Of a stretch of DNA of 40,217 nucleotides, positions 1,050-19,130 are shown in pieces. Numbering within the stretch: position 1 is the first letter of the stretch; each line of letters starts with the position of its first letter. The notes under the pieces were generated by a model that worked only from the letters and a program-made list of their open reading frames with translations, did no database searches and was not told the origin of the DNA. Source of the DNA: Bacteroidales bacterium. GTDB taxonomy: Bacteria > Bacteroidota > Bacteroidia > Bacteroidales > UBA932. The position numbers and the translations under genes are program-made. The stretch is taken from assembly GCA_017962925.1 (NCBI GenBank), contig JAGCUK010000095.1:1-40217 (forward strand), given 5' to 3'.

Positions 1050-3050
1050 TCAATTGATGATCACTTCGCTGATGTTGACGGTCACCTTCTTATCCCCCCG
1101 GTTGAAGCTAAGGCGCACATACTGCACGTTATCCACTTTGACCGGGGCACCTACGGTAAGTATTTGGAAATGCTTTCTGTCCGCATGCAAATTTGACTGG
1201 GGCACATTCACCGGAGTGAACTCCTTCCCATCGGATGAGACGGAGAATTCCACGTCCGAAGGCACCCTGATACGGCGCAGATTGTAGTCTGCAAACTCAG
1301 CGCCGAGGTAATTCAGCTTCATCTTTTTCCCCAGGTCGATATCTATCGTGACCTCTTTGCCGCGGACCTCGTTCCAGACCTTTCTGTCGGCAATGTTCCA
1401 GCCGCCCAGACGGCCGTCCACCAGGATAGAGGCATTCTGCGGTGCACCGCCTGCCTCGCGAATAGTAGCCTTAGCCTGCTGGGTGATGCGTGGAATCTCC
1501 ACCGCCGCTTCCGGCCTGTCGCCAACTTCAGTCTCAAGATTGAAGAGGGTGTAGCCCTTATCCTTCATCATCCTGCCCAAGGCTATGGCACGCTCTCGGA
1601 AGGATGAATAATCCTTTGATGCAGCAAGACTCCATCCGGTTTCCGCAATCGCAAAAGCGCGGGGGTAGAGCATATACTCAAAGTGCCGGGGCTCAAGCAC
1701 GCACTCGCCCCAGAGATTACCCTGCACGCCGAGCAAATGCTCCAGCGAGCTGATGCCCTCTTCGGGGTCGTAGTTGTAGACGGATTCTATCGCAAGATAA
1801 GGCCTGAATGCCATAGGCTCCTTGTAAGGGGCATCCTGGCCATAGTCCAGATAGTAGTAAGTGTTCGGGGTCATGATCACGTCGTGCCCCATGCTGTTGG
1901 CCTTGATGCCTCCGGCGACTCCGCGCCAGCTCATGACCGTGGCATTCTCGGAAAGGCCGCCTTCCAGGATTTCATCCCAGCCAATCAGGCGCTTCCCGTG
2001 AGCATTGACAAACTTTTCCACGCGCCGGATCACATAGCTCTGGAGCTCGAATTCATTCTTCAATCCTTCCGCGGCCATACGCTGTTTGCAACGGCTGCAA
2101 AGCACCCAGTTGGCCTTGGAGGCCTCGTCTCCGCCGATGTGGATGTACTGCGAAGGGAAGATTTCCATCACCTCGGCGAGCACCTTCTCAAAGAAATCGA
2201 AGACATCTTCCCGCCCGGCGCAGATAACGTTGTTGGCGGGGTGTTTGCCGTCGCAAAAATACTCCGGATGCACGCTCAACAGCACCCTGTTATGGCCGGG
2301 AATCTCGATTTCGGGAATAACTTCTATCTGGCGTTCGGCGGCATAGGCGACGATTTCCCGAAGGTCATCCTTGGTGAGATAGCCTCCGTAGATGTGCCCG
2401 TCATCATAGATGGTTCCGTGCACATAGCCGGCAGGTTCACTGCCGTACTTCTGGGCCTTTCCGGATAGGAAATTGTGGAAAAACCAGGCATCGCCAAAGC
2501 CGGCGATGGACGCCATTTCCGGAGCGCAGTCAAGCTTGATGCGCCAGGCTTCGTTATCTGTGAGATGCAACTGCAGGCGGCTCATCTTCACCAGCGCCAT
2601 CGCATCTATCTGCTTGAGAATGAAGTCCTTACTCTGGAAGTGGCGGACCAGGTCGAACATCAGCCCGCGATGCACAAAGCGCGGTGCATCATCGATGCGG
2701 CAAAAGGCAACCTTCCCCTCCGGATCAGCGTTCCGCATCTGGATGAGGGACTGCAGGGCATAAAAGGCTCCCTTCTGGCTGGCGGCAGAAATGGTGACGC
2801 CCTTTCGGTTTATCGTGAGCGTATACGCGCCATCCGGCCTGCCTTTCTGCTCCTTCGGCCCGATCTTGAATTTGATCGCAGCCATGTCGCCTTCGGACAA
2901 GGCAAAGAAATCCTGCTTGTCCAGAGTGATGCTCCCGGCAGCTTTCCCGCTTGCAGTGGTGTAAGATGCCACTTTGGGGATAATGCACTCGGGAGTGCTG
3001 CCACCTGCGAGGGTGGAGATCATTAGAAGCAGGGAGAATAATACTGTCAT
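1050..3050 (-). CDS. GH20 beta-N-acetylhexosaminidase, exported
   Basis: Predicted to release terminal beta-linked GlcNAc or GalNAc by substrate-assisted catalysis in the periplasm or at the surface. After a short hydrophobic signal (about 1-17) comes the GH20 N-terminal alpha/beta domain (about 20-120). The catalytic barrel follows (about 125-480), with HIGGDEASKANW holding the catalytic Asp308-Glu309 pair. Other family motifs seen are HLTDNEAWR (162-170) and EIEIPGH (247-253). The C-terminal 140 residues resemble a discoidin-like (F5/8 type C) sugar-binding module. Length (666 aa) is typical of Bacteroidota GH20. The start codon overlaps the stop of the phosphatase gene as TAATG, which fixes the start and suggests translational coupling. 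It is the only classical exo-glycosidase in PUL 1 and points to a HexNAc-containing substrate. Confidence 0.94.
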   Translation of the reverse strand: MTVLFSLLLMISTLAGGSTPECIIPKVASYTTASGKAAGSITLDKQDFFALSEGDMAAIKFKIGPKEQKGRPDGAYTLTINRKGVTISAASQKGAFYALQSLIQMRNADPEGKVAFCRIDDAPRFVHRGLMFDLVRHFQSKDFILKQIDAMALVKMSRLQLHLTDNEAWRIKLDCAPEMASIAGFGDAWFFHNFLSGKAQKYGSEPAGYVHGTIYDDGHIYGGYLTKDDLREIVAYAAERQIEVIPEIEIPGHNRVLLSVHPEYFCDGKHPANNVICAGREDVFDFFEKVLAEVMEIFPSQYIHIGGDEASKANWVLCSRCKQRMAAEGLKNEFELQSYVIRRVEKFVNAHGKRLIGWDEILEGGLSENATVMSWRGVAGGIKANSMGHDVIMTPNTYYYLDYGQDAPYKEPMAFRPYLAIESVYNYDPEEGISSLEHLLGVQGNLWGECVLEPRHFEYMLYPRAFAIAETGWSLAASKDYSSFRERAIALGRMMKDKGYTLFNLETEVGDRPEAAVEIPRITQQAKATIREAGGAPQNASILVDGRLGGWNIADRKVWNEVRGKEVTIDIDLGKKMKLNYLGAEFADYNLRRIRVPSDVEFSVSSDGKEFTPVNVPQSNLHADRKHFQILTVGAPVKVDNVQYVRLSFNRGDKKVTVNISEVIIN

Positions 3051-4333
3051 TATAACCGATTTACAAACAACGATGTACGTTTTGAAAGGTATTCTTTAAC
3101 CGCAGGCCACTCATAATACGGGCCGTCAAATGGCTTCAGGTTGCCGAGCACCGCTTCTTCACCGTTCAGCAGCAACTTCACCAGCGGCTCTCCCCCGCGC
3201 TTCTTGCACTTGGGAGTGTAGAACACTAACTGGAGATTGGCCGCCATCGGAGAGCAGTAGGTCCTGAACACATCCTTCAGGTCATCTGCCTTGGCGGGGA
3301 ACTGGCCGAATCCCTCGATGTCCATAATCATCAGCAGGGACATCAGCACGTGATCGTGGCCGAAGCGCAGGTTGGCGCCCGTGCTGCCGGCAGAGAGTCT
3401 GTCATCCGCCTTGGCTATCATATCATCCACTATGGAAGAGCAGGTTACGCAGTAAGGCAGATACTCGCGGAAACGCTCGTAGTTGTCTATCTCCCAAAGG
3501 ATTGCAAGCTCCTCGTCGGTCAGCAGGCCGGAGATGTCGACACGCACGTCTTCGGGCAGGCTGTTCATTCCCACCACCAGCATCGCATAGTTGAAGAACG
3601 CATCATAGGCGCTATACTTGCCTAGGCAACCGGCAGTGTTCTTGAACAGGCGTGCCAGAGCATCGTTGTAGCCCGGGAACTTGCGGAGGAAGAAAGCCTC
3701 CGAACTCTCATCGTAGGGGAAGACAGGCTTGGGGCCCTTGTAGGCAAAAGGATTCTTGCCCATATTCGGCCGGGTAGCCTGGATATCCAGAGTGCCGGAG
3801 TGGGCATAAACATCCGCTTTTGGCGCCTCAGACGAGATGGATGCACATTCGCTGGACATGCTCATTATGGAGCGGACGGAGGTGGATGAGCAGGCATCTA
3901 CCTCGCTGCCTTTCTTGAACGCATCCGGGAAGGATGCCACCATAGTGCGGGCTATCCAATCGTGCTGCTGCCAGCCGAGGGGCGTGAGGTCGCCTACCTG
4001 ATACTGCGCCTTCTCCCAGAACTTCTCTAGGTCTGCGAGTAGCTTGAAGCCGCGGTCGGTCAGGTTTCCCTTGGACGCACCGGCGCGCAGCAGTTCCAGA
4101 GGCATAGTATAGGCCTTCGCAGTATAGGCATAGCGCGAACCGTGACGGCCGTAGTGGCTGATATACACGGCTTTATATCCCTTAGGCGCTGGTGTGGCCG
4201 CCTTGACGGACATATCGTAGACCCCGTCCAGGCCGGAATACTTGTTCCAATCGAACGCCTGGGCAAAGGCAATCCCGCTCCAGGCAGCAAGCGCCAGGAG
4301 CAGGACAATAAAGAAGGTGCGATGCGACTTCAT
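3050..4333 (-). CDS. Histidine acid phosphatase (branch 2), exported
   Basis: Predicted to hydrolyse phosphomonoesters through a phosphohistidine intermediate. A type I signal peptide ends at about residue 25 (IAFAQ). The catalytic motif YGRHGSRY lies at 61-68, with nucleophile His64 and phosphate-binding Arg63 and Arg67. The distal FGHDHV motif (325-330) supplies the HD proton-donor pair. Together these define the histidine acid phosphatase/phytase branch; MINPP-like phytases of gut Bacteroides are relatives, though many of those carry HAE rather than HD. Length (427 aa) fits. It lies between the antiporter (3-nt gap) and GH20 (TAATG overlap). In this operon it could remove phosphate from sugar phosphates exposed by the phosphodiester glycosidases and supply Pi for exchange. 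The substrate is not readable from the sequence. Confidence 0.87.
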   Translation of the reverse strand: MKSHRTFFIVLLLALAAWSGIAFAQAFDWNKYSGLDGVYDMSVKAATPAPKGYKAVYISHYGRHGSRYAYTAKAYTMPLELLRAGASKGNLTDRGFKLLADLEKFWEKAQYQVGDLTPLGWQQHDWIARTMVASFPDAFKKGSEVDACSSTSVRSIMSMSSECASISSEAPKADVYAHSGTLDIQATRPNMGKNPFAYKGPKPVFPYDESSEAFFLRKFPGYNDALARLFKNTAGCLGKYSAYDAFFNYAMLVVGMNSLPEDVRVDISGLLTDEELAILWEIDNYERFREYLPYCVTCSSIVDDMIAKADDRLSAGSTGANLRFGHDHVLMSLLMIMDIEGFGQFPAKADDLKDVFRTYCSPMAANLQLVFYTPKCKKRGGEPLVKLLLNGEEAVLGNLKPFDGPYYEWPAVKEYLSKRTSLFVNRL

Positions 4334-4336
4334 GGG

Positions 4337-5716
4337 TTAGTCGATTTCCTGGGGCTTGCGCTTCCAGTTCAGTATCGGGAGGAGGAAGGAGATGACCGCT
4401 GCGCCGATCCAGAAGATGCTGGCGTAGGTGAAATCATGCTTGCCGTCCACGATATTATTGTCCAGAAGCAGACCGGTGACAACGTTCTGAAGACCAGCAG
4501 CAGCGTAGGATGCCATACCAACGATTCCGATGGCGGCACCTGTCGCCTTGCGAGGCACCAAGTCAATAGCCATCAATCCACCAACGAAACTGATCAGCAC
4601 GCCGATAGCGATGCCGAAGAGTACCATTGAGAGAATAGCGACCCATTTCTGCGGCCCGCCAAAGAGGAAGAGCACCAGCGAGATGGCCTCGAGGATACCT
4701 GCCACGAACGCCGGGTACTTACGGTCTCCTTTGAAAACGGCATCCGAAAGCCATCCGGAGAAGACGGTGCCGAGCACTCCGAAGATGGGATTGATGCCCA
4801 CGATGGCACCGGCCTCGGTGAGGCTATAGCCGCGAGCCTCCTGAAGGAAAATGATACCCCATTCATTTATGGCGTAGCGGCTCATATACATAAACGCGCT
4901 TGATAATGCCAGAATCCAAACGCCGGGGTTGCGCACCACTGAGGCTTGCAGGCGGCGGGTTTCCGCACGCTTTTCAGATGCAGGCACAGGCTTAGGCTGG
5001 GGCTCATTGGCAAGTTCCTCGATAGAAGGGAGGCCCTTGCTCTCGGTGCTGTTGTGGAGGAAGAAGACGATGATAAGCACTCCCAGGATGCCGGCCAATG
5101 CGGCTCCGAAGAAGCCCCATCTCCATCCCATAGCGGCAACCATGGCACTCACGAAGACGAAGGAAAGGCCTTCACCGATATTGTGCGAGGAACTGAAGAA
5201 GCCATAGAAGGTTCCGCGTATGCGAAGCGGGAACCAGCGGGAAAGGGAGATGATTGCAGGCGGCGCACCCATGGACTGCGCCCATCCGTTAACTGCCCAG
5301 CAAATGGCGAAAGTGAGGAATAGGCCACCGTTGGCCATATTTCCGTTCATTGCACTCACTCCAAGAATGCCCATGATAAAGTTCATCGCCACGGACACGA
5401 TCAGGCCGGCGGCCATGAAACGCTTGATATTGGCGCTGTCGGCAAGGAAGCCGTTCACCAGTTTGCCGATGGCGTAAGCCCAATAGAGGCACGCGCCGAT
5501 GATACCCAGTTGGGTAGCGTTGAGCAAGCCCGCATCGATGAGCGGCTGCTTCATCACGCCCATCGAGAGGCGGCAGACATAGTAGAGGGCATAACCGAAG
5601 GTTGCTGCCAGGAATGTCTGGATCCTCAGTCGCTTGTAGGTTTTATCGACTTTCTCCGCCGGAACTGCTTTTGCCGCCGGGGCGCTGTCAATCTTGAAGA
5701 AATCCAAAACGCTCAT
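4337..5716 (-). CDS. Organophosphate:Pi antiporter-type MFS transporter (GlpT/UhpT family)
   Basis: A 12-helix inner-membrane permease of 459 aa. Family features are clear. GYALYYVCRLSMGVMKQP (41-58) corresponds to the first helix of GlpT, with Arg49 at the place of phosphate-binding Arg45. SSHNIGEG (176-183) carries His178 at the place of GlpT His165. AFMYMSRYAINEWG (274-287) carries Arg280 at the place of GlpT Arg269. GWAQSMGAPP (144-153) is the QGxGxPP-like family motif. Known members exchange glycerol-3-phosphate or hexose-6-phosphate for inorganic phosphate. It is embedded in the PUL operon, 3 nt upstream of the acid phosphatase. Residues 222-255 form a long hydrophilic central loop. A sensor-only UhpC-like role is possible but less likely with no two-component system nearby. 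Confidence 0.86.
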   Translation of the reverse strand: MSVLDFFKIDSAPAAKAVPAEKVDKTYKRLRIQTFLAATFGYALYYVCRLSMGVMKQPLIDAGLLNATQLGIIGACLYWAYAIGKLVNGFLADSANIKRFMAAGLIVSVAMNFIMGILGVSAMNGNMANGGLFLTFAICWAVNGWAQSMGAPPAIISLSRWFPLRIRGTFYGFFSSSHNIGEGLSFVFVSAMVAAMGWRWGFFGAALAGILGVLIIVFFLHNSTESKGLPSIEELANEPQPKPVPASEKRAETRRLQASVVRNPGVWILALSSAFMYMSRYAINEWGIIFLQEARGYSLTEAGAIVGINPIFGVLGTVFSGWLSDAVFKGDRKYPAFVAGILEAISLVLFLFGGPQKWVAILSMVLFGIAIGVLISFVGGLMAIDLVPRKATGAAIGIVGMASYAAAGLQNVVTGLLLDNNIVDGKHDFTYASIFWIGAAVISFLLPILNWKRKPQEID

Positions 5717-5736
5717 AATATCTTTTGTTTATCCTA

Positions 5737-6672
5737 TTAAATACCCTCGTTTTTCGAAACGTCGATGACCAGGAACATGGTCCGGACATTACGGACCCCG
5801 GCGTGATCGTATTTTTCGTTATCGGTGGGATAGTTTACGACGTTGGTTTCAGGGTCGCCCTGGCCACGCACGCAGAGGGTGGTGGATCCGCCACCGTCCA
5901 TATTGAGTGCGTACTGAGGGTGGAAGTATTTCACCAGGAAACGGGTCAGTTCGCGGGCGCTCATTCCCTCGCTGACGGCGGGGCGGCGGCCATCTACCGC
6001 AACCAAAAGGAGGTGGTTATTCTTGGTCTTGGCAACCGCAGAACGCGGGTGGCGCACCCCCTGGTGGCGGATAGGATCCTCATACTGGAGTTTGTCAAAA
6101 TCCTCCTGCCCGTACTTCGGGTCCACAAAGCGCTCGCCCACCGGATCGAAATCATCGATGAGCATGGGGGCGCTGGAGAAGATGTTGTTATGGGTGGAGG
6201 ATGCGTAGAAGGCCCTGCGTTCTTCGATGGTCTTACCCTTGCCGTCGAAGGTGATGCTCACGTCGCGGCCGTTCTCCACGCAGATCGCACCCTCGCTCTT
6301 CCAGTTGGGGATGTTGCTGGTGAAGACGAAGTCGTGGGGCATGCAGGTGAAGTATTCTCCATCCACCTTGATGACGACAGAGGTCGATTCATAGGTTGCA
6401 TTCATCGCCGCGATGCAGCCGGGAGTGCGGAGATAGACGTCTGAGGTCGGCTCTCTCTTGTCGGAGCAGTTGAAACGCAGTTCGTATTTAGGATTGTTCA
6501 GATCCTGGTCGATTACAAATACTTGCTGCGCCGAGCCCGTCACCTTGTCGATACCCGAGAAGGTGTAATAGGTGATGCCGTCGGCAATCTTCGTAGTGGT
6601 CCAGCCCTCGCCCCTCGGCCCGGTGCATGCAAACAGCGGCAGCGAGAGAAGGATAATCAGTGCTTTTCTCAT
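5737..6672 (-). CDS. Phosphodiester glycosidase (NAGPA/DUF2233 family) lipoprotein
   Basis: Related to the mammalian uncovering enzyme, which removes GlcNAc from GlcNAc-1-phospho-6-mannose; activities of bacterial members are largely unassigned. A lipoprotein signal ends LPLFAC (Cys16). The NAGPA domain fills about 25-305, with conserved AAMNATYES (88-96), RHPRSAVAKT (207-216), VDGRR (226-230) and the family hallmark NMDGGGSTT (257-265). Its start overlaps the stop of the SGNH hydrolase gene as ATGA. A second family member lies on the other side of that gene; both share the hallmark and a VVNYP..N..YDH segment, so they are tandem paralogues. Likely anchored in the outer membrane, cleaving sugar-phosphate diesters. 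The exact bond is not known. Confidence 0.88.
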   Translation of the reverse strand: MRKALIILLSLPLFACTGPRGEGWTTTKIADGITYYTFSGIDKVTGSAQQVFVIDQDLNNPKYELRFNCSDKREPTSDVYLRTPGCIAAMNATYESTSVVIKVDGEYFTCMPHDFVFTSNIPNWKSEGAICVENGRDVSITFDGKGKTIEERRAFYASSTHNNIFSSAPMLIDDFDPVGERFVDPKYGQEDFDKLQYEDPIRHQGVRHPRSAVAKTKNNHLLLVAVDGRRPAVSEGMSARELTRFLVKYFHPQYALNMDGGGSTTLCVRGQGDPETNVVNYPTDNEKYDHAGVRNVRTMFLVIDVSKNEGI

Positions 6673-7445
6673 TTCAGCAGTCCTTCGATTATTGGTTTGA
6701 TGATACCCTCCATTACCGTGTAGGCGTCGGGGTTGGGGTGCAGGTAGTCGTAGAGGCAGTACTCTGTCTTGAGTGAATACCCGTCAGAGGCCACCAGGGC
6801 CGGATAATAGTCACAATAGGTAAAGCCCTTTTCCCCTGCATAGTCCTTGATCATCTTGTTCAGAGCCACGATATGGGTTCCTTTGGGGCGGGGAGTCAGT
6901 CTGCTGTACTCCATATTGCAGGGCGTGACGGAGCAAAGCACCACCTTCATGTTCTTAGCGGCTGCCTGCTCGGCCATGGACTTGATATTATTCAGGATGT
7001 TATCCTTGGTAATACCCTGGGCCAGGTCGTTGGTGCCGCCCATGATGACCACGACGAATGGATCCTTTGCGAGGACGTCCTTCTCATAACGGGCCAGCAT
7101 TTCGTCGGTGCGTTCGCCGCTGACACCCATGTCCACATAGTTGTTCTGAGAGAAGAAGCTGGCATGCCAGGTAATTGTCACATTCTCGCCGGAGATACTC
7201 ATCCAGGCGGGTCTGGGATCTATAGGAATGATTACCTGCTGGCTCGCTTTCAACGTGCGGGTCACAAGCCCCCACTGCCAGGTGATACTGTCACCGATAA
7301 AAGCGGCTTTGGGACCTTTATGCGCTGCACTCTGGTCGGGTTTCTCGGGCTCGATATTGTTGTTGTAAGTCTCTTTGCTACCACAGGAGGCTGCCAGTAA
7401 GGCAGCCCCTGCGATTGCAATAAGCAGAAACAGTCTGTGTTTCAT
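6669..7445 (-). CDS. SGNH/GDSL-family hydrolase lipoprotein
   Basis: Predicted serine esterase; members in carbohydrate loci are often deacetylases, but substrates vary. The lipoprotein signal ends LLAASC (Cys21). Block I is AFIGDSITW with nucleophile Ser53. Block II glycine is in MGVSGERT (106-113), with Gly110. Block III is GGTND (136-140) with Asn139. Block V is DYLHPN (233-238), supplying Asp233 and His236. All four SGNH blocks are intact and the 258-aa length is normal. It sits between the two phosphodiester glycosidase genes, 3 nt from one and overlapping the other, so it probably removes ester groups from the same substrate. A lipid substrate cannot be excluded. Confidence 0.9.
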   Translation of the reverse strand: MKHRLFLLIAIAGAALLAASCGSKETYNNNIEPEKPDQSAAHKGPKAAFIGDSITWQWGLVTRTLKASQQVIIPIDPRPAWMSISGENVTITWHASFFSQNNYVDMGVSGERTDEMLARYEKDVLAKDPFVVVIMGGTNDLAQGITKDNILNNIKSMAEQAAAKNMKVVLCSVTPCNMEYSRLTPRPKGTHIVALNKMIKDYAGEKGFTYCDYYPALVASDGYSLKTEYCLYDYLHPNPDAYTVMEGIIKPIIEGLLK

Positions 7446-7448
7446 AAT

Positions 7449-8504
7449 TTACTTTTTAAGCACCATAATGAAAGCGTCACGGGAACGCTCACCGGTATGG
7501 TCGTAGTTCTTGTTTCCGTCGCAAGGATAGTTGACCACATTGGTCGAAGCATCTCCCTCTCCCTTCACGCACATAGTGGTGGAGCCGCCGCCATCCAGGT
7601 TCAGGGCATACTGCGGATTAAACCACTTTACCATGAAACGTGTCAGCGAACGGGCGCCCATTCCATAACTCTTGATACGGCCATCCACACACAGAAGAAT
7701 CAAATGGTTATCCTTCGTGAGGCCAATCGCAGTGCGCGGGTGCAGCGTGCGCTGATGCTTGTCGGGATGCTCGCTACTCAAGCCTTTATAATAAGACGAA
7801 CTGGTGCTGATGGAGTAATCAACAAAGTTTTCTCCCACCTTTACATAGTCATTGATGAGCATCGGCGCGCTGGTAATGAAACTCGGATATTCCGTGGTAG
7901 AAAGGGCCTTGTAGTATTGCCGCTGCTGATCAACGGTTACTTCACCCTTCTTTTGCGAACCCGCCCACAGGAACTTCACGTTGCTGTCTCCCGAGAAGGA
8001 GACTGCTGCTTCACTCTTCCAGTTGGGGACCTCGGTGCCATTGATAATATCATTCTGCAGCGTATACACATTTGTACCGTTGACACGCATGTAGATGGAA
8101 GTGGGCTCATAGTTAGCATTGATGGCAGCAATGGCCTTCGTCTGCTTTCTAAACGCGGCTGATGTTGTGAGGCGTGGATTCTCGTAAACCAACTTCACCT
8201 GATAGGCCGGATTGTTCAAGTCCACATCAATGACAAAGACTTCCTGATGATAGCCGGTAATCTCATCCGTGCCGTTGAAGACATGATAGAGGACTCCATT
8301 ATCTATCTGTTTGCTGGTCCAGCCTTTGCCCAGCGGCGTGGCTTCTACCCCTGCACCGCCCTGGATGTCACCACCGCCGGGAGCATCGGTCTGCTCCTCG
8401 CCATTAGGTGGAGGAAGTTCTTTGACGGGCTCTTTGTTACCCCCGCATCCATTCAGAAGCAGGGGCAACAGAGCCATCAATAAAAAGAATCTTTTCAGTT
8501 TCAT
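7449..8504 (-). CDS. Phosphodiester glycosidase (NAGPA/DUF2233 family) lipoprotein, second copy
   Basis: Same family as the protein encoded at 5737-6672. The lipoprotein signal ends LLLNGC (Cys20). A Gly/Pro-rich spacer of about 35 residues follows, as in surface-exposed Bacteroidota lipoproteins, then the NAGPA domain. Shared motifs are AAINANYEPT, LHPRTAIGLTKDNH and NLDGGGSTT, ending in a VVNYP..N..YDH segment like its paralogue. The longer spacer (351 aa against 311 aa) may hold this copy further from the membrane. It lies 3 nt after the GLUG lipoprotein stop and 3 nt before the SGNH start. Two copies suggest different linkages or different cellular sides, which is inference. Confidence 0.87.
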   Translation of the reverse strand: MKLKRFFLLMALLPLLLNGCGGNKEPVKELPPPNGEEQTDAPGGGDIQGGAGVEATPLGKGWTSKQIDNGVLYHVFNGTDEITGYHQEVFVIDVDLNNPAYQVKLVYENPRLTTSAAFRKQTKAIAAINANYEPTSIYMRVNGTNVYTLQNDIINGTEVPNWKSEAAVSFSGDSNVKFLWAGSQKKGEVTVDQQRQYYKALSTTEYPSFITSAPMLINDYVKVGENFVDYSISTSSSYYKGLSSEHPDKHQRTLHPRTAIGLTKDNHLILLCVDGRIKSYGMGARSLTRFMVKWFNPQYALNLDGGGSTTMCVKGEGDASTNVVNYPCDGNKNYDHTGERSRDAFIMVLKK

Positions 8505-8507
8505 TCC

Positions 8508-10460
8508 TTACTTGAGTTTAGGCGTGTCACCGCTGAGATCCCAGACTTCGGCGCTCCAGCCAATACGCTGGGCCACCTGACTCAGGGTCTCGGAAGCACC
8601 GGCGGCCTTGCCGTGGTAACCGCAACTGTAGGTTCCAGTACCCCAGACCAGCGGATTGTCAGCATTTGCATCATCCTGATCGGTAGGCACATAATCGGTG
8701 CCCTTCGCTACATTACCAGCGCAATCGTTGTAAACCAGATCGGCTTTGCGCCAGCAGTTCTTGAGGGTGTTCTTCTGGGCTGTAGAGCCTATAATAGCGC
8801 CATTGCTATAATGCTCGCTGGTATCGGAACAATTGGAGGTGAGAGCATTGTTCCATGCAATACAGTTGGCAATGTTCTGTCTCATGGCAGAGTTGGCATT
8901 GTTGGCTTTGGTGCCCTTGGCAGCGCCATTCGCCCTGCCCACGATACCACCAAAGTAGAACTGCGTTGTTAAGGACATGGTTGAGAAGCAGTTGGTAATA
9001 GAACTGTTCGCACAAATCAAATCACCGCTGATACCGCCAACTATAGACGCCGAAGATGTAATTGAACCGGAGGTCCAGCAATTGCTGATAACAACGCCCG
9101 TTCCGGCATCTACTCCAATGATTCCTCCATTCTGCTGTCCTGCGCAAGTAATGACCACATCAGCCGAACTATTGGTAATCGTAGCCTCGCGGCCCGTACC
9201 AAACATGCCTCCCACGCAATTACCGGCGGTGCTGGTTATAGTACCCTGGACATGAACCTTGTCCACCTGGCAAGGCTTATCGGCGGTGCCGCCATAACCT
9301 CCCAAAATACCGCATCCCTTAGTAGTTGCGCTGATGGTGGCATTGACGAACTTAACATTGTGGCACTTGCCGTACAGCACACCGAAGAAACTGGGATAAC
9401 TGGCGGCCGAGCAACTGAAGTTGTAAATGGTATGACCGTCTCCGTCAAAGTCAATCTCCTTGTCATAAGGAGAAGCGGCATTGACCGGAGTCCAGTTGAT
9501 ACCATCCATGTTAATGTCGGCGCCTAACTTGAAGTAACGTTTTTCACCTGCTACCAGATCGTCATTCATGAACTGAATCTGCTCGGGCGTATTGATGACC
9601 CAAGGCTTGTCGGCAGTACCCTTACCGGAAGCATAGTGGCTGGGCAGCACCCAACCTGTGGCGTCCACGTTGAATACGTTCACCTTGCCGGGCATCAGGA
9701 CCGACTCTTCGGTAAACTTGACATCCTTTTCAATGGTACCTACCTTGGTCTTGACACCAACGGTGAGGGTGGTACCCGCAGGCACGGTCACCTCGTTCCA
9801 GGACGTGGTGAACCATGCGGTGAACACGTGCTTGGCATCCGGCGTGGCGTCGGTCACAGCCAGTTCCAACTTGTTTACCTTGGTGTTGCCGTTGTCCTTG
9901 TAGAAAATGGCATCTTCGGCAACAATGGAAACGCCGTTCACGGCACTCACTGTATCGGGAAGAGCGATGACCATCTTCATTACACCAATCTGCTTAATTG
10001 TACCCTTGTGCTCAGCAGCCCATTCCGGGTTGAAAGAGAAGGAGAGGTAGTCGTCAACGTCGGAGAGCTGGGCGGCATACTTCAGATGGCCATACGAGTT
10101 GTTGCCAGTCTGAGTCTGCTTGCTCCAGTCGGCCGTTGCGGCGTCGGTAGGATAAGCGATGGTAAAACTTTCTCCTTTAACGGGTTTGCCCACAAACTCG
10201 GCAAACTTGCCAGAGAAACCATCCTTGATTTTATAAGTTTCCGTTGCCTCGGCACCGGTGACGGCAATCTTATCACCTTCACCCCAGTACCAAGAGAAGC
10301 CCACATGGGCACCTGCCTTGGTGAGAACATCCTCAGGCAGCCCGCCCTTGATGGTAATCAAGTCTTGCGGGGCCGGCAAATCATTACCCGCTTCCTTCAT
10401 ACAAGAAGCCAGTACGGCTACGCCGGCAAGCATTGCTATGATATATTTCGTTGTTTTCAT
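8508..10460 (-). CDS. Surface lipoprotein: fimbrillin-like N-domain with GLUG repeats
   Basis: Lipoprotein signal ends VLASC (Cys20). Residues about 30-270 resemble the fimbrillin superfamily: a VLTKAG segment at 45-50, GEGDKIAV and beta-rich sequence. From about 275 the protein carries GLUG-type repeats (units such as NCVGGMFG, QNGGIIGV, SIVGGISG and FYFGGIVG, each followed by a Cys/Asn-rich strand). It ends with a conserved HGKAAG...SQVAQRIGW...WDLSG tail. That second half is clearly homologous to the neighbour at 10476-12185, while the N-domains differ. It occupies the SusE/SusF position after susD, so a glycan-binding role at the cell surface is likely but inferred. No catalytic motif was seen. 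Confidence 0.82.
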   Translation of the reverse strand: MKTTKYIIAMLAGVAVLASCMKEAGNDLPAPQDLITIKGGLPEDVLTKAGAHVGFSWYWGEGDKIAVTGAEATETYKIKDGFSGKFAEFVGKPVKGESFTIAYPTDAATADWSKQTQTGNNSYGHLKYAAQLSDVDDYLSFSFNPEWAAEHKGTIKQIGVMKMVIALPDTVSAVNGVSIVAEDAIFYKDNGNTKVNKLELAVTDATPDAKHVFTAWFTTSWNEVTVPAGTTLTVGVKTKVGTIEKDVKFTEESVLMPGKVNVFNVDATGWVLPSHYASGKGTADKPWVINTPEQIQFMNDDLVAGEKRYFKLGADINMDGINWTPVNAASPYDKEIDFDGDGHTIYNFSCSAASYPSFFGVLYGKCHNVKFVNATISATTKGCGILGGYGGTADKPCQVDKVHVQGTITSTAGNCVGGMFGTGREATITNSSADVVITCAGQQNGGIIGVDAGTGVVISNCWTSGSITSSASIVGGISGDLICANSSITNCFSTMSLTTQFYFGGIVGRANGAAKGTKANNANSAMRQNIANCIAWNNALTSNCSDTSEHYSNGAIIGSTAQKNTLKNCWRKADLVYNDCAGNVAKGTDYVPTDQDDANADNPLVWGTGTYSCGYHGKAAGASETLSQVAQRIGWSAEVWDLSGDTPKLK

Positions 10461-10475: not shown

Positions 10476-12185
10476 TTAGTTATAGAACTCATGTTCGCCA
10501 AAGTCGGGCAGCTGGCCTTCGGCATCGTCATCCGTGATAATAACAGGAGCGTCACCACCCTTGAAGAACGGAAGAGCGCCGGACAGATCCCAGATGCTCT
10601 CATCCCAACCCAAGGCTTTTGCCACCTGAGATGCAGTAGTACCGGCAGCGGCAGCCTTGCCGTGGTACGGGAAGTTGTAGTTTGTGCCACCGGTACTCTC
10701 GGCCACTTGCTTAAGCGGGGATTCCGGAGATGAATTCTCCTGATCGAAGAGCACGTTGAAGGTGTTACCCGGGCAGTCAGAGAAGTCCAGATCGGCTCTG
10801 CGATAGCAGTCTGCAAGATAGTTCTTGACAGAGGTGAAGCCCACCACGGCACCTGCACTGTAGTGTACAGATGCATCAGCCACGTCGGAATAGATAGATT
10901 CATTCCAGGCGATGCACTTTTCGACATGGTTCTTAATGTCCAGGCCTTCTCCGGTCTTCTGACCCTGAGCGGCGTCTCCCACGATGCCGCCGTACTTAAA
11001 CTGGGCATGCACCTTGGCGGTAGAGTAGCAATTCTTGATGACTACCGGGCTGACAGCCGCATTATTGGCTGCATTTCCTGCGATACCACCCACCATTCGG
11101 TTTCCGGAGATATCACCAGCACTCCAGCAGTTAGAAACCGTGCTGAACTTCGGAGCCGCCGAATTGTCGTAACCGTAGATGCCGCCGGAATCGTACTTGG
11201 TAGAAACAATGGTAACATCGGCCGAGCAGGCATTGATGGTGGCATTGATGATAATGCCGAAGAGTCCGCCGGTTCCGTGTGCGACCGTATTGTTAATCTT
11301 TCCGCTCACGTTCACGTGATCAACCTCAACCGGAGTGTCCTGTGTGCCAGCAGTAGAGCCCACGATACCGATTGCGCCTGCGGCGTTGTCAATCTGCGCG
11401 TTCGTAACGTTAAGATTACAGAGTTTACCCACGACATAGCCAAACAGGCTGGTAGTCCCGGTGAAGTTGGTAATGGTATGACCCTTTCCGTCCATGTTGA
11501 AGGGGAAGGCCAGAGTATTGACGGGTTCCCAATCGGTTACGCCAGTCATATCCAGGTCGTTCTCCAGGGTGAAATACACCATGGTACCCTCAACTAGTTT
11601 GGATTTCATGGCCTTAAGATCATCTACAGAAGCGATCTCATAAGGATTATTCTCTGTTCCGGGAGCGTTGGGGTCTACATTGCTCATCTTGAAGATCACA
11701 TAAGCGGCCAGGGTGTCGGCTACCGACCATTTATCGGTCTGGGTAGCCTTGTCCAGCGTAACAGGCAGAATGTAAGTCACATCATCCTCCAGGCCAGAAG
11801 CGGTCACCTTGAGTTTGGCGACAGTGGATGCCTGGCCATAGCGGGGCAGCATCACATTGTTGGTCACGAATTCGAAGGCCGAACCAGGGCACATCTGGTA
11901 GGAAGTGCCATTGGCCTCGTTGTATTTGGCTACGGCGTCGGCATCGGCCTTGAAAGAGAAGTTCATGGTGATGTCGGTCACGTGGCTCTGGAAGGCACAG
12001 GCCTTCAGGTTATAGGACTTGCTGGCACCGGGAGCAATTTCCACCAGTGCTTTATCGCCCGGAATGTCGGCATAGAAGACGCCTTCCATGCTGGGCTCGG
12101 CTGTTCCTGTCTCAGAACCATTCTTCTGACAAGATATCGCCATCGCGGCAAGGGCCGTCATCAGCAAATAAAATATCTTTTTCAT
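10476..12185 (-). CDS. Surface lipoprotein: DUF1735 N-domain with GLUG repeats
   Basis: Starting at the ATG at 12183-12185 gives a standard lipoprotein signal, MKKIFYLL to AISC (Cys19); an in-frame ATG four codons upstream is also possible. The N-terminal domain (about 30-165) resembles DUF1735, common in lipoproteins of glycan loci (NEANGTSYQMCP, DVTYILPVTL). A linker rich in Pro/Asn leads to GLUG-type repeats (GGLFGII, SGGIYGYD, MVGGIAGN, KYGGIVGD). The HGKAA...SQVAKALGW...WDLSG tail matches the downstream gene product. Located directly after susD, it is probably a surface glycan-binding protein handing substrate to SusC/SusD. DUF1735 often accompanies host-glycan loci, which fits the hexosaminidase in this operon. 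Confidence 0.83.
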   Translation of the reverse strand: MKKIFYLLMTALAAMAISCQKNGSETGTAEPSMEGVFYADIPGDKALVEIAPGASKSYNLKACAFQSHVTDITMNFSFKADADAVAKYNEANGTSYQMCPGSAFEFVTNNVMLPRYGQASTVAKLKVTASGLEDDVTYILPVTLDKATQTDKWSVADTLAAYVIFKMSNVDPNAPGTENNPYEIASVDDLKAMKSKLVEGTMVYFTLENDLDMTGVTDWEPVNTLAFPFNMDGKGHTITNFTGTTSLFGYVVGKLCNLNVTNAQIDNAAGAIGIVGSTAGTQDTPVEVDHVNVSGKINNTVAHGTGGLFGIIINATINACSADVTIVSTKYDSGGIYGYDNSAAPKFSTVSNCWSAGDISGNRMVGGIAGNAANNAAVSPVVIKNCYSTAKVHAQFKYGGIVGDAAQGQKTGEGLDIKNHVEKCIAWNESIYSDVADASVHYSAGAVVGFTSVKNYLADCYRRADLDFSDCPGNTFNVLFDQENSSPESPLKQVAESTGGTNYNFPYHGKAAAAGTTASQVAKALGWDESIWDLSGALPFFKGGDAPVIITDDDAEGQLPDFGEHEFYN

Positions 12186-12198
12186 ACTTTGGTGCATC

Positions 12199-13989
12199 TT
12201 AGAAAGTTAAACCATCGTCCCATCCCGGGTTCTGGGTGAGAGCGCCACCGGTGAGGCTGCGCTCGTTGGTAGGAACAGGATAGAGGTAGTCACGGCCGTC
12301 ATTCCACTTGCACTGGATTCCCTTGAAGAGATTCACATTGCCGGAATTACCGTTGCTGAGGATAAACTCTGTACTGCCAATCTTGTACTGGACAGGGGCA
12401 GTGCTGGCGGGCTTGGTATCTCCATAAAGGAGGATATCCGCAACGCCGTCACCATTCAGGTCGTATTCGCCCTCTCCGGGGAAATACATGCCATAATACT
12501 GCTTTTCGAAGATCTTGCCTTCCTTCCAGCGCATAATGTCATAGTAACGGAAACCTTCCTGAGCCAACTCTACGGCACGCTCACGGCGAATTTCCAAGAT
12601 GACACCCTTGTTGGTACCGGTCACATTCTGGTAACCGCCCCAGGCCTCATTGGTAAGGAAAGGATCCGGATTAGCATTGGCGGCTTCCATATTCAGGGCC
12701 GGCATACCGGCGCGGGAACGGATGCGATTAATGCTCTGATCCAGGTCGGCCTGCGACAGGGTATTAGCTTCGGCCTTGGCCTCGGCATAGTTCAGCATAA
12801 CCTCGGCGGCGCGGAAGATGATCAGGTCTGTTTCAGAACTGTTGTATGCGTCATACTCTTTCTCTACCACATACTTGGCCGGATGATAACCGGTGAGGCA
12901 GTATTCGAACTCGGGCGGGCAAGGTGCATCGTCACCCAAACGCTTGTAACCAGGGGTACGGATGCTCTGTGCCAGACGAGGGTCGCGGTTCTTAGTTTCC
13001 GTAATAAAGTCCATGGTCTCCCAACCAGCCTGGTCGGTAAAGCGGGTACCGTCGGCCATCAGATAACTGGCCACCATCTTGCGGGTCATGCCGTAACGGC
13101 CACGGGTAGAAGCATGCATGGCACCGGTAGCGTCATGCGTCACGCCATAGGCGGCGTTGTAGTTGCGGGCCAGAATAACCTCGTCCGTGTTTTCCGTAGC
13201 GTCATTCGTGGTGAACAAGCTATAGTAGGCCTTATTGGCACCGCCGGCGGTATGTAAGGTATAACCGCTGTTAGCCAGGAAATCACTGGAAACCTTGGCG
13301 CATTCTTCCAGATACCACTTCCAGTCATGGGCACCAGTGCCATAGTCAAACTCGGTGTGGTATTTACGGAAAGTACCTTCGAACAGCAGGAAACGGGATT
13401 TGAGGGCCATAGCGGTCCATTTGGTAATCTCGTAGGTGCTCTTGGTGGCAGGGAGGTTGGCGATCGCGCAGTCAATGTCCTCGATCATCTTGCCCATGAT
13501 GAACTCACGGGAGTCGCGGGGACGCTTGAGAGCCTCGGTATCGGCCGATCCTACAGGTTTGTCATACCACGGCACTTCGCCGAAGCGCTTGAGCATGCTG
13601 AAATAGAAGTAGGCGCGGAAGAATCGGGCAAAGCCTTCATACTTGGCGCGAACGTTGGCATCGGGGCAGTTGGAAAGGTACTCCAACATCGTATTCGCAG
13701 TGCGCAGATTTCCCCAACTCCAGCCGTTGCCGGTAGGTTCAATCTGACGGGTACCTTTCTGTTCATCGGTCAGCCCCATCTGGATATAATTATCGGCATT
13801 TTCGATAAAGAGGGAGGATGCGCCGGGCAACATGGCATACAGGTTCATGCCATAGGCCTGGAGTTCCGTTTCTGTCTTGTAGAAAGTTTCGGGGGACATG
13901 CGGTCCAGGGGATAGATGTCCAGCAAATCGTCGCAGCCGGTAAAAGTGAAACCGGCCAGGATGAGAAGGATATATGCAATCTTTTTCAT
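12199..13989 (-). CDS. susD: SusD/RagB-family outer-membrane nutrient-binding lipoprotein (PUL 1)
   Basis: Binds glycan at the cell surface and caps the SusC channel. The lipoprotein signal ends FTFTGC (Cys19), followed by the SusD N-terminal signature DDLLDIYPLDRMSPETFYKTE. Helical TPR-like segments (FARFFRAYFYFSMLKRFGEVPW, RAAEVMLNYAEAKAEA, RRERAVELAQEGFRYYDIMRW) and a C-terminal NPGW are all typical. At 596 aa it is of usual length. It begins 13 nt after the susC stop, the standard susC-susD order, and the next gene follows about 13 nt after its stop. Confidence 0.96.
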   Translation of the reverse strand: MKKIAYILLILAGFTFTGCDDLLDIYPLDRMSPETFYKTETELQAYGMNLYAMLPGASSLFIENADNYIQMGLTDEQKGTRQIEPTGNGWSWGNLRTANTMLEYLSNCPDANVRAKYEGFARFFRAYFYFSMLKRFGEVPWYDKPVGSADTEALKRPRDSREFIMGKMIEDIDCAIANLPATKSTYEITKWTAMALKSRFLLFEGTFRKYHTEFDYGTGAHDWKWYLEECAKVSSDFLANSGYTLHTAGGANKAYYSLFTTNDATENTDEVILARNYNAAYGVTHDATGAMHASTRGRYGMTRKMVASYLMADGTRFTDQAGWETMDFITETKNRDPRLAQSIRTPGYKRLGDDAPCPPEFEYCLTGYHPAKYVVEKEYDAYNSSETDLIIFRAAEVMLNYAEAKAEANTLSQADLDQSINRIRSRAGMPALNMEAANANPDPFLTNEAWGGYQNVTGTNKGVILEIRRERAVELAQEGFRYYDIMRWKEGKIFEKQYYGMYFPGEGEYDLNGDGVADILLYGDTKPASTAPVQYKIGSTEFILSNGNSGNVNLFKGIQCKWNDGRDYLYPVPTNERSLTGGALTQNPGWDDGLTF

Positions 13990-14002
13990 AAGGCACTGTC
14001 AA

Positions 14003-17000
14003 TTAAAGGGTCACGTCTATACCAAACATAATGGTCTTCTGCCAGGGATAGATGCGCAGGTTGCCATTGGTCTGGGCCATTTCTGGATCGATGTAGTCGC
14101 AGTGCAGGCCAGGAGCCCAGTAGAACAGGTTTTCACCCGTGAAGTAGAAGCGAAGACGCTCGATACTTACCTTCTTGGTAATCTTCTCCGGCAAGGTGTA
14201 GCCGAAGGTGAGGTTCTTCAGACGCAGATAGCCAATGTTCTGCAGGTAACGGTCGTTGGTCTCGGTGAGCTCACGGCCCGTACCTACGCCGGCCACATAA
14301 CCGCGGGGACGCGGGAAGTAAGCATCGGGGTTCTCCTCGGTCCAGTACATATTCTGGAAGTCGCGGGGAATGAACGTTGCGAACGGGCGTGCATACAGGC
14401 TCCAGAACTGACGCACCTCGTACTGAGGATACCAGTCCATATGGCCGATGCCCTGGAAGAACATTGCCAGGTCGAAGCCCATGTATGAGGCACCCAGGTT
14501 GATACCAAAGTTGTAGCGAGGCTGGCCATTTCCGATGACGCGGTAGTCACCGCTGTCACCAACTTTTTCCTGGCCCTTGTCAATTTTGCCATTGCCATCC
14601 AGGTCGGCGAACTTGAGGTCGCCGGCACGGACACCGGGAGCGCCGGTAACCGGGTTGATATCACCCACGCTGGCATTGATGATGCCATTCACCTTGGACT
14701 GATCCACGCCGTAAGCAGCCGCTTCTTCATCGGAAGCGAACAGGCCGTCGATGTGCCATCCCCAGATGTCGCCATATTTCATGCCCACCCAGTAATTCTT
14801 GGAGAGGAGCATGTCAGGGTTGTTGAAACGGGTGATGTGGGACACATAGTCACTGAACAGCACGCTGGCGTTGTAATGGAAGGGTTTTCCGGCAATCGTG
14901 AAGGTATCCTTCCAACCCATGTTGAACTCATAACCCATGGTGCGCAGGTCAGCTACGTTCTCCTTGGGAGCAGTGCTATAACCATAGGTAGAGGGCAGAA
15001 CCTCACCGGCGGTAAGCATGTCCTTGGTGTCACGGATGTAACCCTCGGCACTGAAATCCAGACGGCCGCTCAGGAAGGTCATGTCCACACCCAGGTTGCT
15101 CTGAATGGAGCGCTCCCAGGTAAGACCGGAAGAAACAGGGGCCGAGATGGTGGCGAGAGCCGGCTTTGCGCCGCCCAGCAGATAAGTGGACTGGCTGCCG
15201 GTAGAGATGGTGCGGATGGCGGGATAGTAATCGCTCATCTGCTGGTTGCCCAACTGACCGAAAGAAGCACGGATCTTAAGGTTGTCCCACCACTTCTTGA
15301 GGGGTTCGAAGAAGCCCTCTTCGCTGATTCTCCAACCCATGGAAACGGACGGGGAGAATACCCAGCGGCTACCGCGAAGGAAGCGGGAAGAACCGTCGTA
15401 ACGGCCGTTCACTTCCAGCAGGTATTTGCCCTTGTAGTCGTAGTTGATACGGCTGAAGTAACCGGCGGTGCGGTATTCGTTCTGACCACCCGCAACCTCC
15501 ATGCGCTTGTTGCCGTCGGCATCGGTGCCCACCAGGTTCAGGTCGTTCAAATCATAGGAGAACAGGTCGTAACCGATAGCTTCCAAATCCTTGATGTGCT
15601 TGGTTTCGTAGTTCACACCGGCCATAATCTTAAGGTTGTGTGCCTCGTTCCAACTGTGTTCGTAGGTAGAATAGAGGTTGGCGGCCTGGTAGGTGTGCAC
15701 GTTGGCATCTTCGGAAAGTTTGTTCTCAAAGGCAGCACCCGTAGACTGAGTTATGATGATGCCGGGCTCCTTGGAATAATAGCCAGGCATAGTACGGTTT
15801 GTATAACGGACCAGACGGAAACTATAAGTGTAGTCACCCTTGATGGTAAAGCCCTTGAAAGGAGTAATTGTGGCATCAAGGGTATTGCTCAGGTTGTCGA
15901 TACGGTCGGTGTTGGTATCCCCGTTGTTCAGGGCCATCATAAGACCGTCCATGAGCGTACTATTATTATATTTAGTCTGATAAATGATAGTACCGTCGGG
16001 GTTGTAGGCGGGGTAACTAGCCGATGCGTGTGCAGATGCACCATAAAGGGAGTTGTTGATACCGCCGCGGCCCGGATAGGTGTAACCGCTGTTGAAATAA
16101 CTGAAGTTATTGCCGATCTTGAGCCACTTGGTCACATCGAAACCGACCTTTGCGCGCAGATTGTAGCGGTTATAGGAATCGGGGTTGATATTGAACATAC
16201 CCTGCTCGTAAGTGTAACCGGCAGAAATGAGGTAGTTCACATGCTCTGTAGCGCCGCTGGCGGTAAGGGTGTGGCTGGTCGTGGGTTTATTGTCCTTATA
16301 CAGCACATGCCACCAGTCGGTGTTGGCATAATAGTTATACACATCCTTACCGGACTGATCCTGCGTGATGACGACCCAGGGACGTGCGGGATTCTCCACC
16401 ACATCGTTGCGGCGGGCCCAGAGTTCCTGCATGTCGGCGTCGGAATAGTTATAGTTAAGGGTGTTGTTATAAGCCTTCATGAACAGGTTGGAAAGGTACA
16501 CGGTGTAATAACCGCGGGTTTCCCAGTCGGTGGAGGCGGTAGGAGCCGTCCAACCCACACGGCCGCTATAGGTTACCTTGGCCATGCCGTCCTTTTCCTT
16601 GGAGCCATTCTTAGTGCTTACCAAAATGACACCGGCAGAACCCTTAGCACCGTAGATGGCTGCAGCAGCAGCATCCTTGATGACGGAGATATTGTCAACA
16701 TCGGCAGGGTTGATGTACTGGATATCGCCTTCCACGCCGTCAATGAGCACCAGCGGGCTGCCTCCGTTAATGGAGTTCCAACCGCGGATGTTCAGGCTGG
16801 CGGCCTGGCCGGGACGACCCGAAGCGGAGGTGACGTTAAGGCCTGGAACAGAACCCTGCAGCATGTGACCCACATCCAGAGCCGAACGATCTTTGAGGTT
16901 TTCGGCCTTAATGACCGACACGGCACCGGTGAGGTTAGTCTTCTTCTGGGTACCGTAACCAACGACTACGGCATCTTCCATCAAGAAGGCATCTTCTTCC

Positions 17001-17281
17001 AGGGTGATGGTGAGATTAGTGCGTCCATCCACCGGCACCTGCTTGGAGATGTATCCGAGGCAGGAGACTGTGAGGACGTCTTGAGGAGAAACGGTGATGG
17101 CAAACTTGCCATCCATGTCCGTGACAGCATTGGCATCCTTGCCCTGCAGAACCGCCCCTATGACGGGACCGGTGCTATCGAGCACTGTGCCAGTAACTGT
17201 CTGCTTCTGGGCAAATGCACCAAAAGACACTGCCATACCTAGCAGTACGGACAGCATTGCGAACAGTCTTTTTTGCAACAT
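14003..17281 (-). CDS. susC: SusC/RagA-family TonB-linked outer-membrane transporter (PUL 1)
   Basis: TonB-dependent importer for the glycan handled by this locus. A signal peptide ends at about residue 25 (SFGAFAQ). A carboxypeptidase-D regulatory-like beta-sandwich follows (about 26-105). Next is the SusC signature DAVVVGYGTQKKTNLTGAVS, a plug domain (about 110-225), then a 22-strand barrel to the C-terminal aromatic-rich end. Length (1092 aa) is typical. There is no N-terminal secretin/TonB STN domain, so signalling to an anti-sigma factor is not expected; this agrees with the divergent SusR-like regulator. It is the first gene of a twelve-gene operon. A Bacteroidota -7 element lies about 45 nt upstream of its start. 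Confidence 0.96.
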   Translation of the reverse strand: MLQKRLFAMLSVLLGMAVSFGAFAQKQTVTGTVLDSTGPVIGAVLQGKDANAVTDMDGKFAITVSPQDVLTVSCLGYISKQVPVDGRTNLTITLEEDAFLMEDAVVVGYGTQKKTNLTGAVSVIKAENLKDRSALDVGHMLQGSVPGLNVTSASGRPGQAASLNIRGWNSINGGSPLVLIDGVEGDIQYINPADVDNISVIKDAAAAAIYGAKGSAGVILVSTKNGSKEKDGMAKVTYSGRVGWTAPTASTDWETRGYYTVYLSNLFMKAYNNTLNYNYSDADMQELWARRNDVVENPARPWVVITQDQSGKDVYNYYANTDWWHVLYKDNKPTTSHTLTASGATEHVNYLISAGYTYEQGMFNINPDSYNRYNLRAKVGFDVTKWLKIGNNFSYFNSGYTYPGRGGINNSLYGASAHASASYPAYNPDGTIIYQTKYNNSTLMDGLMMALNNGDTNTDRIDNLSNTLDATITPFKGFTIKGDYTYSFRLVRYTNRTMPGYYSKEPGIIITQSTGAAFENKLSEDANVHTYQAANLYSTYEHSWNEAHNLKIMAGVNYETKHIKDLEAIGYDLFSYDLNDLNLVGTDADGNKRMEVAGGQNEYRTAGYFSRINYDYKGKYLLEVNGRYDGSSRFLRGSRWVFSPSVSMGWRISEEGFFEPLKKWWDNLKIRASFGQLGNQQMSDYYPAIRTISTGSQSTYLLGGAKPALATISAPVSSGLTWERSIQSNLGVDMTFLSGRLDFSAEGYIRDTKDMLTAGEVLPSTYGYSTAPKENVADLRTMGYEFNMGWKDTFTIAGKPFHYNASVLFSDYVSHITRFNNPDMLLSKNYWVGMKYGDIWGWHIDGLFASDEEAAAYGVDQSKVNGIINASVGDINPVTGAPGVRAGDLKFADLDGNGKIDKGQEKVGDSGDYRVIGNGQPRYNFGINLGASYMGFDLAMFFQGIGHMDWYPQYEVRQFWSLYARPFATFIPRDFQNMYWTEENPDAYFPRPRGYVAGVGTGRELTETNDRYLQNIGYLRLKNLTFGYTLPEKITKKVSIERLRFYFTGENLFYWAPGLHCDYIDPEMAQTNGNLRIYPWQKTIMFGIDVTL

Positions 17282-19122: not shown

Positions 19123-19127
19123 ATTTG
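19120..19127 (+). promoter_or_regulatory. Candidate -7 element ahead of the EEP-family gene
   Basis: TAAATTTG matches TAnnTTTG and overlaps the regulator stop codon (TAA at 19120-19122). The start site would be near 19132-19134, just past the first ATG (19131) but before the ATG at 19152. No good -33 element is present at 19 nt, so it may be fortuitous. Confidence 0.3.
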
Positions 19128-19130
19128 TCT

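Follow-up and report, generated by a model that had tools for sequence, protein, structure and literature searches.

A SusC/SusD operon pairing NAGPA-family proteins with a histidine acid phosphatase is a candidate utilization locus for phosphodiester-linked glycans in Bacteroidales

Proposed function of the operon

The window analyzed here is a 40,217-nucleotide stretch of a Bacteroidales bacterium genome (assembly GCA_017962925.1, contig JAGCUK010000095.1, named C53 in the analysis; the genome is 84% complete, 2.0 Mb), and it carries a ten-gene SusC/SusD operon that combines two proteins of the phosphodiester glycosidase family NAGPA with a histidine acid phosphatase (HAP). We interpret this operon, with a probability of about 0.7, as a SusCD locus that takes up and degrades a glycan or oligosaccharide with glycosyl-1-phosphodiester bonds, in which NAGPA would hydrolyze the bond and HAP would strip the phosphomonoester.

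Lipoprotein NAGPAs, and probably also the neighboring EEP-family phosphoesterase, would cut the substrate at or outside the outer membrane, and the resulting pieces would be imported through SusCD. Hydrolysis of the sugar C1–O–P bond by a NAGPA would yield a free sugar and a phosphomonoester, which would lose its phosphate to HAP in the periplasm; material still phosphorylated may enter via the organophosphate antiporter (OPA)-like permease in exchange for inorganic phosphate (Pi). Catalytic activity, reaction order, location, substrate and permease cargo are what we infer from sequence, and the sequential NAGPA-then-HAP chemistry is the best-supported step because the two domains are repeatedly fused in relatives. 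The observations themselves comprise the gene order, the protein families, their intact motifs, conservation in related genomes, the recurrent NAGPA/HAP fusion and a split in predicted leader types.

NAGPA/HAP association across the genus

A HAP search of 400 genomes of the window's own genus revealed some HAP in 279 of them (E<=1e-30). At the stricter threshold of E<=1.5e-109 there were 89 rows, namely the window's own, 82 that were examined and six that were left out (the fragment G256:C69, G362, G289, G553, G433 and G468). The 82 genomes represent one per species; several of their HAPs are near-copies (e.g., L107, L111, L112 and L113), so the counts are not independent events. In 48 of these close HAP loci, NAGPA and HAP are fused in frame, 25 times as NAGPA-HAP and 23 times as HAP-NAGPA, the remaining architectures being one HAP-EEP fusion, 29 single genes and four other long open reading frames (ORFs), of which three hold two HAP domains and one a beta-helix region. 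NAGPA was fused to HAP or located no more than 9 kb away in 52/82 loci, versus 0/20 HAP-paralogue loci; these controls were hand-picked weaker HAP rows without in-frame stops, at 36–41% identity, some on short stretches (to 4.9 kb).

Within the same 9 kb of the 82 HAPs, SGNH was found in 20 loci, EEP in 17, SusC and SusD in 11 each, Agp-like proteins in seven, GH97 in six, and GDPD and purple acid phosphatase in four each. The controls held neither OPA nor EEP (0/20 each). Across the 400 genomes, an OPA orthologue (E<=1e-150) was present in 63 of the 88 with a HAP orthologue versus 58 of the 312 without one (odds ratio 11; Fisher p 3e-20, without kinship correction), many of the co-occurring OPA genes residing on contigs other than that of HAP. 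Given the fusions, the empty controls and the OPA/HAP co-occurrence, the NAGPA/HAP association is more than chance.

An earlier note on this DNA, made from the sequence alone, had proposed that the locus unmasks a sugar-phosphate diester and then dephosphorylates or imports the product, and had named a lack of conservation in related genomes as a refutation. The association proved to be conserved, and the theme of NAGPA followed by a phosphatase is supported, the fusions being stronger evidence than that note had. Its OPA-type permease likewise proved a frequent companion. GH20, which it had also counted as a member of the set, is present in the window but is otherwise only an occasional partner, found within 9 kb of HAP in 8/82 loci and more commonly in the control stretches (10/20), and it was marked down as a defining part. 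GH92 was also rejected as a system member, being near HAP in a single locus of the 82 (by a model built from two sequences), with the window's GH92 genes located in a separate, convergent operon.

An Agp-type glucose-1-phosphatase homologue lies directly beside HAP in six loci (L100, L107, L111, L112, L113 and L060), the L112 protein (7927-9225) scoring 257 bits against Agp. Separately, the HAP paralogues constitute a second HAP/HexNAc association: they lie about one gene from GH20 in L143, L144, L145, L146, L148, L149, L157, L160 and L161. By eye, the intervening gene resembles a sugar-responsive regulator in L143, L148, L157 and L160, with NagB-like genes beside it in L157. Three HAP genes stand in a row at L160:9208-13738, and the ORFs with two HAP domains are L086:4039-6654, L092:3843-6806 and L093:4720-7245.

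Beyond the genus, NAGPA1 matched 6/199 family genomes at E<=1e-20 (25 genera covered), its own included and all of its own genus. The fusion of L024 recovered 2/393 order-level genomes at E<=1e-60, its own and one lone HAP, and a lineage-C fusion (described below) recovered 11/198 at E<=1e-25, its own plus ten with a lone HAP whose frame spans 417–479 aa. No fusion outside the genus was thus seen in these genome samples, from which diverged forms could escape detection.

Protein families, motifs and leaders

RHGxR and HD are the catalytic motifs of histidine phosphatase branch 2, and HAE is the proton-donor motif of multiple inositol polyphosphate phosphatases (MINPP). The window HAP carries RHGSR at residue 63 and GHD at residue 325, and both RHGxR and GHD are kept in 89/89 HAP ORFs, a set separate from the 82 loci that includes the duplicates L016/L064, L019/L072 and L020/L124 and a few distant paralogues. 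Its solved relatives are 7r5y (E=1.8e-36), a code found in none of the open-access papers searched, and MINPP chains (~1e-22). HAE is absent from the window HAP and from all 89 ORFs, and a MINPP or phytase reading was accordingly marked down.

Both window NAGPA proteins pass the PF09992 curated cut-off of 25 bits (NAGPA2 with 84, NAGPA1 with 80), and both retain the HPRxA, VDGR and NxDGGGS motifs, which were read from alignments and are catalytic. Among 176 NAGPA segment entries, in which many proteins are counted twice, NxDGGGS is present in 176, a VDGR-type motif in 164 and an HPRxA-type motif in 154. In the EEP alignment of 16 rows, the N, E, H, D and SDH columns are invariant; a PDB search with this PF03372 protein gave no close solved relative. 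Large lipoprotein-like domains fused to NAGPA and to SGNH were observed in L021 (1043 aa, 11420-14551, and 1233 aa, 14773-18474, respectively) and L023 (1050 aa, 12063-15215, and 1080 aa, 15426-18668).

The best NCBIfam equivalog of the permease is GlpT, yet the protein falls under every cut-off (224 of 408 bits for the PgtP subfamily TIGR00881, 211 of 633 for GlpT and 161 of 497 for UhpT). In its alignment with 1pw4 (E=4e-48), two Arg, a Lys and a His are identical, residues that we take to form the GlpT phosphate-binding pocket. We class the permease as OPA-like.

Under the final lipobox rule, none of 62 fusions has a lipobox, while 55 have a signal-peptidase-I-type leader and seven are unclear; stand-alone HAPs are similarly of signal-peptidase-I type in 24/30 cases, with a lipobox in two. 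A lipobox is predicted in 21/24 stand-alone NAGPAs, 14/16 EEP, 6/7 EEP2 and 7/10 Agp-like proteins by this rule, which misses likely lipoproteins such as the window SusD. Of the window proteins, NAGPA1, NAGPA2 and EEP carry a predicted lipobox, which HAP lacks. These predicted locations fit cutting by anchored NAGPA and EEP and completion by a periplasmic HAP.

Lineage C and the history of the fusion

A NAGPA2 search of the same genus found 90/400 genomes at E<=1e-50 and further ORFs of about 700–770 aa. Lineage C comprises 16 HAP-NAGPA loci (L025 and L163-L177), in which two ORFs are partial and 14 exceed 650 aa; the L025 HAP is 31% identical to that of the window. L025, L172 and L176 are four-gene loci consisting of SusC, SusD, EEP2 and HAP-NAGPA, with flanking ORFs that appear unrelated by eye, and no glycoside hydrolase was found among their genes, our own profiles covering GH20, GH92 and GH97 only. 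Pfam confirms the four genes of L176 and the pair in L172; in each of these loci, one ORF passes the cut-offs of NAGPA and of His_Phos_2 together. In L171, the same four-gene block is joined by an additional SusC and an additional SusD, whereas L164 and L173 each combine two SusCD pairs with EEP2, and L167 holds purple acid phosphatase, HAP-NAGPA, SusC, SusD and EEP.

Because they contain no recognized glycoside hydrolase, the four-gene loci allow a reading in which alternating NAGPA and HAP could take a poly(glycosyl-1-phosphate) apart completely. We tentatively suggest, as an idea that may well prove wrong, that NAGPA-HAP acts as a two-stroke exo-enzyme on such a polymer, with NAGPA removing the terminal sugar and thereby baring a phosphate on the following sugar, HAP stripping that phosphate and the cycle repeating.

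Lineage C forms one clade in both the HAP tree (FastTree) and the NAGPA tree (SH-aLRT 99). In the first HAP tree, a single change separates the two fusion orders among fused rows; in the larger FastTree HAP tree that includes lineage C, three order changes are needed. In the NAGPA tree, order B (HAP-NAGPA) lies among order-A (NAGPA-HAP) rows and may therefore derive from A by rearrangement, and the AU test does not reject a single clade uniting B and C (p-AU 0.08); with these results, independent fusion in every lineage is unsupported. A safe count is at least two joining or rearranging events, with a third likely for lineage C. Window NAGPA2 and its sister L060 fall within the order-A fusions (support at this fork, which is drawn open, is 90). 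The separate NAGPA2 and HAP genes of the window, which lie on either side of the permease gene, may thus have arisen by the splitting of a fused gene. Similarly, the HAP-EEP ORF of L114 lies in the HAP-NAGPA clade and may be a deletion product.

Weighing the proposal and its alternatives

Several observations weigh against a SusCD locus for phosphodiester-linked glycans. The permease would vie with HAP for the same phosphomonoester, and the window HAP matches no Pfam family at E<=0.001, missing the PF00328 cut-off, unlike two lineage-C relatives that pass it. In 30 of the 82 loci, the 9 kb around HAP hold no NAGPA; 13 of these HAPs rank with the lowest-scoring homologues, and the others are close homologues or lie on short contigs. 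OPA is near HAP in only 21/82, and among the 48 fused genes SusC is near in only nine and SusD in only ten, under a limit tight enough that the window's own SusC, 9.7 kb from HAP, exceeds it. SusCD is also absent from the gene run in 9/16 lineage-C loci. Finally, the contrast in leader types varies with the lipobox rule. A rougher initial version made the contrast much weaker, with a lipobox in 4/24, 3/24 and 6/14 fusions and only 8/24 stand-alone NAGPAs, and the final rule was tightened after that output was seen.

The two leading alternatives are phosphate scavenging and a teichoic-acid-like substrate. The locus could primarily harvest Pi from sugar phosphodiesters, with sugar as a by-product, as in Flavobacterium, where PUS loci combine SusCD with phosphodiesterases or a phosphomonoesterase and are induced by Pi starvation, according to the sections of that report covered here (PMC8115612). 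EEP, GDPD and purple acid phosphatase as neighbors of HAP, together with SusC-SusD-EEP2-HAP-NAGPA loci whose listed genes include no glycoside hydrolase, favor this explanation, whereas the window operon lies beside a SusR-type regulator, contains GH20, SGNH and two large lipoproteins, and has no PhoB/PhoR-type family match among the window proteins scanned with Pfam; on balance, we consider scavenging as the primary role possible but doubtful. Alternatively, the substrate could be a teichoic-acid-like polymer of the Gram-positive wall, including GlcNAc-1-P linkages and glycerol phosphate, with the permease importing glycerol-3-phosphate. GH20 could remove beta-HexNAc from such a polymer, the permease ranks highest with GlpT among NCBIfam equivalogs and with 1pw4 among solved chains, and GDPD does occur within 9 kb of fused genes; it is rare, however, and absent from the window operon, none of whose proteins matches a peptidoglycan-active family in Pfam, leaving a wall polymer a speculative candidate.

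Phosphorylated mannose glycans, such as fungal phosphomannan or GlcNAc-P-Man N-glycans, would instead deliver mannose-6-phosphate to HAP or the permease. Uncovering-enzyme chains are among the solved NAGPA relatives, GH92 genes lie nearby in the window, and G195 has GH130 (Pfam), two GH92 (BLAST) and, beyond OPA, an ORF that by eye is a mannose-6-phosphate isomerase. The rarity of GH92 near HAP, the placement of the window's GH92 genes in another operon and the lack of a mannosidase among the genes of the four-gene loci nevertheless make this substrate unlikely. The use of inositol phosphate or phospholipid head groups by a MINPP-type phosphatase with NAGPA as an accessory is suggested by the MINPP chains among the best solved HAP relatives, but it is highly improbable in view of GHD in place of HAE and of NAGPA as the fusion partner.

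Relation to known systems

The general kind of system, SusCD with phosphoesterases, is already published for Flavobacterium PUS, where PusCD accompanies phosphodiesterases or phosphomonoesterases for imported organophosphates; in the sections covered, that system is induced by Pi starvation, and NAGPA and HAP are not named (PMC8115612). By comparison, our system features a SusR-type regulator, an OPA-like permease and, in relatives, NAGPA-HAP fusions. A NAGPA-related COG is listed among rumen genes in PMC5114307, whose passages covered here describe no polysaccharide utilization locus (PUL) with NAGPA, and apparent NAGPA mentions in the portions seen of PMC9866204 and PMC11925995 are the author name Nagpal. 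Among the open-access (CC-licensed PMC) matches listed, by title and abstract start, no report of NAGPA and HAP in a PUL was found, which is weak evidence of absence; the earlier note knew of no characterized PUL with its exact set.

At the level of single proteins, the window NAGPAs share the PF09992 domain and C-terminal motifs with the NAGPA uncovering enzyme (6pkg and others) and the DUF2233 structure 3ohg; none of the chain names listed, on which this comparison is based, mentions a phosphatase. The HAP belongs to branch 2 by sequence and shares RHGxR with MINPP and 7r5y, differing from MINPP in its GHD motif and in its linkage or fusion to NAGPA. The solved glucose-1-phosphatase Agp (3ntl, 1nt4) is matched by the L112 member of the one cluster of genes beside HAP in six loci; these proteins accompany HAP/NAGPA genes in relatives and are absent from the window operon.

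Operon anatomy and flanking genes

The ORF list and Pfam, NCBIfam and PDB searches revealed ten genes running in one direction on the minus strand from 17281 to 1050, with neighboring genes overlapping or separated by no more than 20 bp. From 17281, their order is SusC, SusD, two large lipoproteins, NAGPA1, SGNH, NAGPA2, OPA-like permease, HAP and GH20 (Table 1). The tightly packed susC/susD operon described in the earlier note is thereby confirmed, and the bounds it gave, 1050..8504, enclose the enzyme half; the operon runs on to SusC at 17281. It is adjoined by a divergent plus-strand unit (17500-21430) encoding the SusR-type regulator, EEP and a flippase-like protein. The SusC/SusD pair, regulator and degradative enzymes characteristic of a PUL thus occur together, as does, by sequence families, the PUS combination of SusCD with phosphoesterases.

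Table 1. Genes of the operon and of the adjoining divergent unit in the window
Feature	Position	Strand	Evidence
GH20 beta-hexosaminidase-family protein	1050..3050	-	PF00728 327 bits; HIGGDE motif
Histidine acid phosphatase (HAP)	3050..4333	-	PDB 7r5y E=1.8e-36; RHGSR, GHD; signal-peptidase-I-type leader by simple rule
OPA-like (GlpT-like) MFS permease	4337..5716	-	PF07690; 1pw4 E=4e-48; below NCBIfam equivalog cut-offs
NAGPA2, phosphodiester glycosidase family	5737..6672	-	PF09992 84 bits; 3ohg and uncovering-enzyme chains; lipobox
SGNH esterase-family lipoprotein	6669..7445	-	PF13472 95 bits; 3p94
NAGPA1, phosphodiester glycosidase family	7449..8504	-	PF09992 80 bits; 3ohg and uncovering-enzyme chains; lipobox
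Large lipoprotein, possibly glycan-binding	8508..10460	-	3n6z E=2e-36 over 273-498; relatives in related loci
BT_3987-like N-terminal domain lipoprotein, possibly glycan-binding	10476..12197	-	PF08522
SusD	12199..13989	-	PF07980 162 bits
SusC	14003..17281	-	PF07715, PF13715
SusR/DUF6377-type regulator	17500..19122	+	PF19904 203 bits; NF058541 406 bits, under its cut-off 480
EEP-family phosphoesterase	19125..19973	+	PF03372; lipobox; relatives adjoin or fuse with HAP
Polysaccharide-flippase-like protein	19970-21430	+	third gene of the divergent unit

A Pfam search gave no family for the large lipoprotein at 8508..10460, and its solved match, 3n6z, is named a putative immunoglobulin A1 protease. 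SusD was rejected as a guide to the substrate, its nearest solved chain (E=2e-17) being named only a putative lipoprotein. A second PUL-like operon occupies 21427-40088 on the minus strand and encodes two GH92, two unusual-looking FAD-dependent oxidoreductases, GH97, GH28, an alpha/beta-hydrolase, a fasciclin-domain protein and SusD. The genes on either side of the window operon, for a cyclophilin (362-1036) and the flippase-like protein, also flank a reduced version with a HAP-HAP gene in L086 and L092, pointing to a constant chromosomal position whose gene content varies. The five named relatives are Bacteroidales metagenome-assembled genomes, three of them titled goat omasum, buffalo reticulum and buffalo rumen and two titled RUG, presumably denoting rumen. 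We regard the window's bacterium as rumen-type, and its genus may be Cryptobacteroides.

Implications

Phosphodiester-linked glycans are common, occurring as teichoic acids, capsules, phosphomannans and protist phosphoglycans, and research on glycan use by Bacteroidota has centered on glycosidic bonds. To our knowledge, the breakdown of phosphodiester-linked glycans in the gut has been little studied. That many related species have the two key enzymes joined in one protein suggests that bacteria do feed on sugar chains linked by phosphate, a food so far little studied. Because NAGPA-HAP fusions recur, a single recombinant protein would suffice to address the question directly, and such fusions could provide enzymes to trim phosphoglycans. 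A locus of the proposed kind would show the PUL plan rebuilt around phosphoester chemistry, and, if the two-stroke reading is true, NAGPA-HAP would be the core of a PUL class that needs no glycosidase, in which phosphodiester bonds are cut rather than the glycosidic bonds between sugars.

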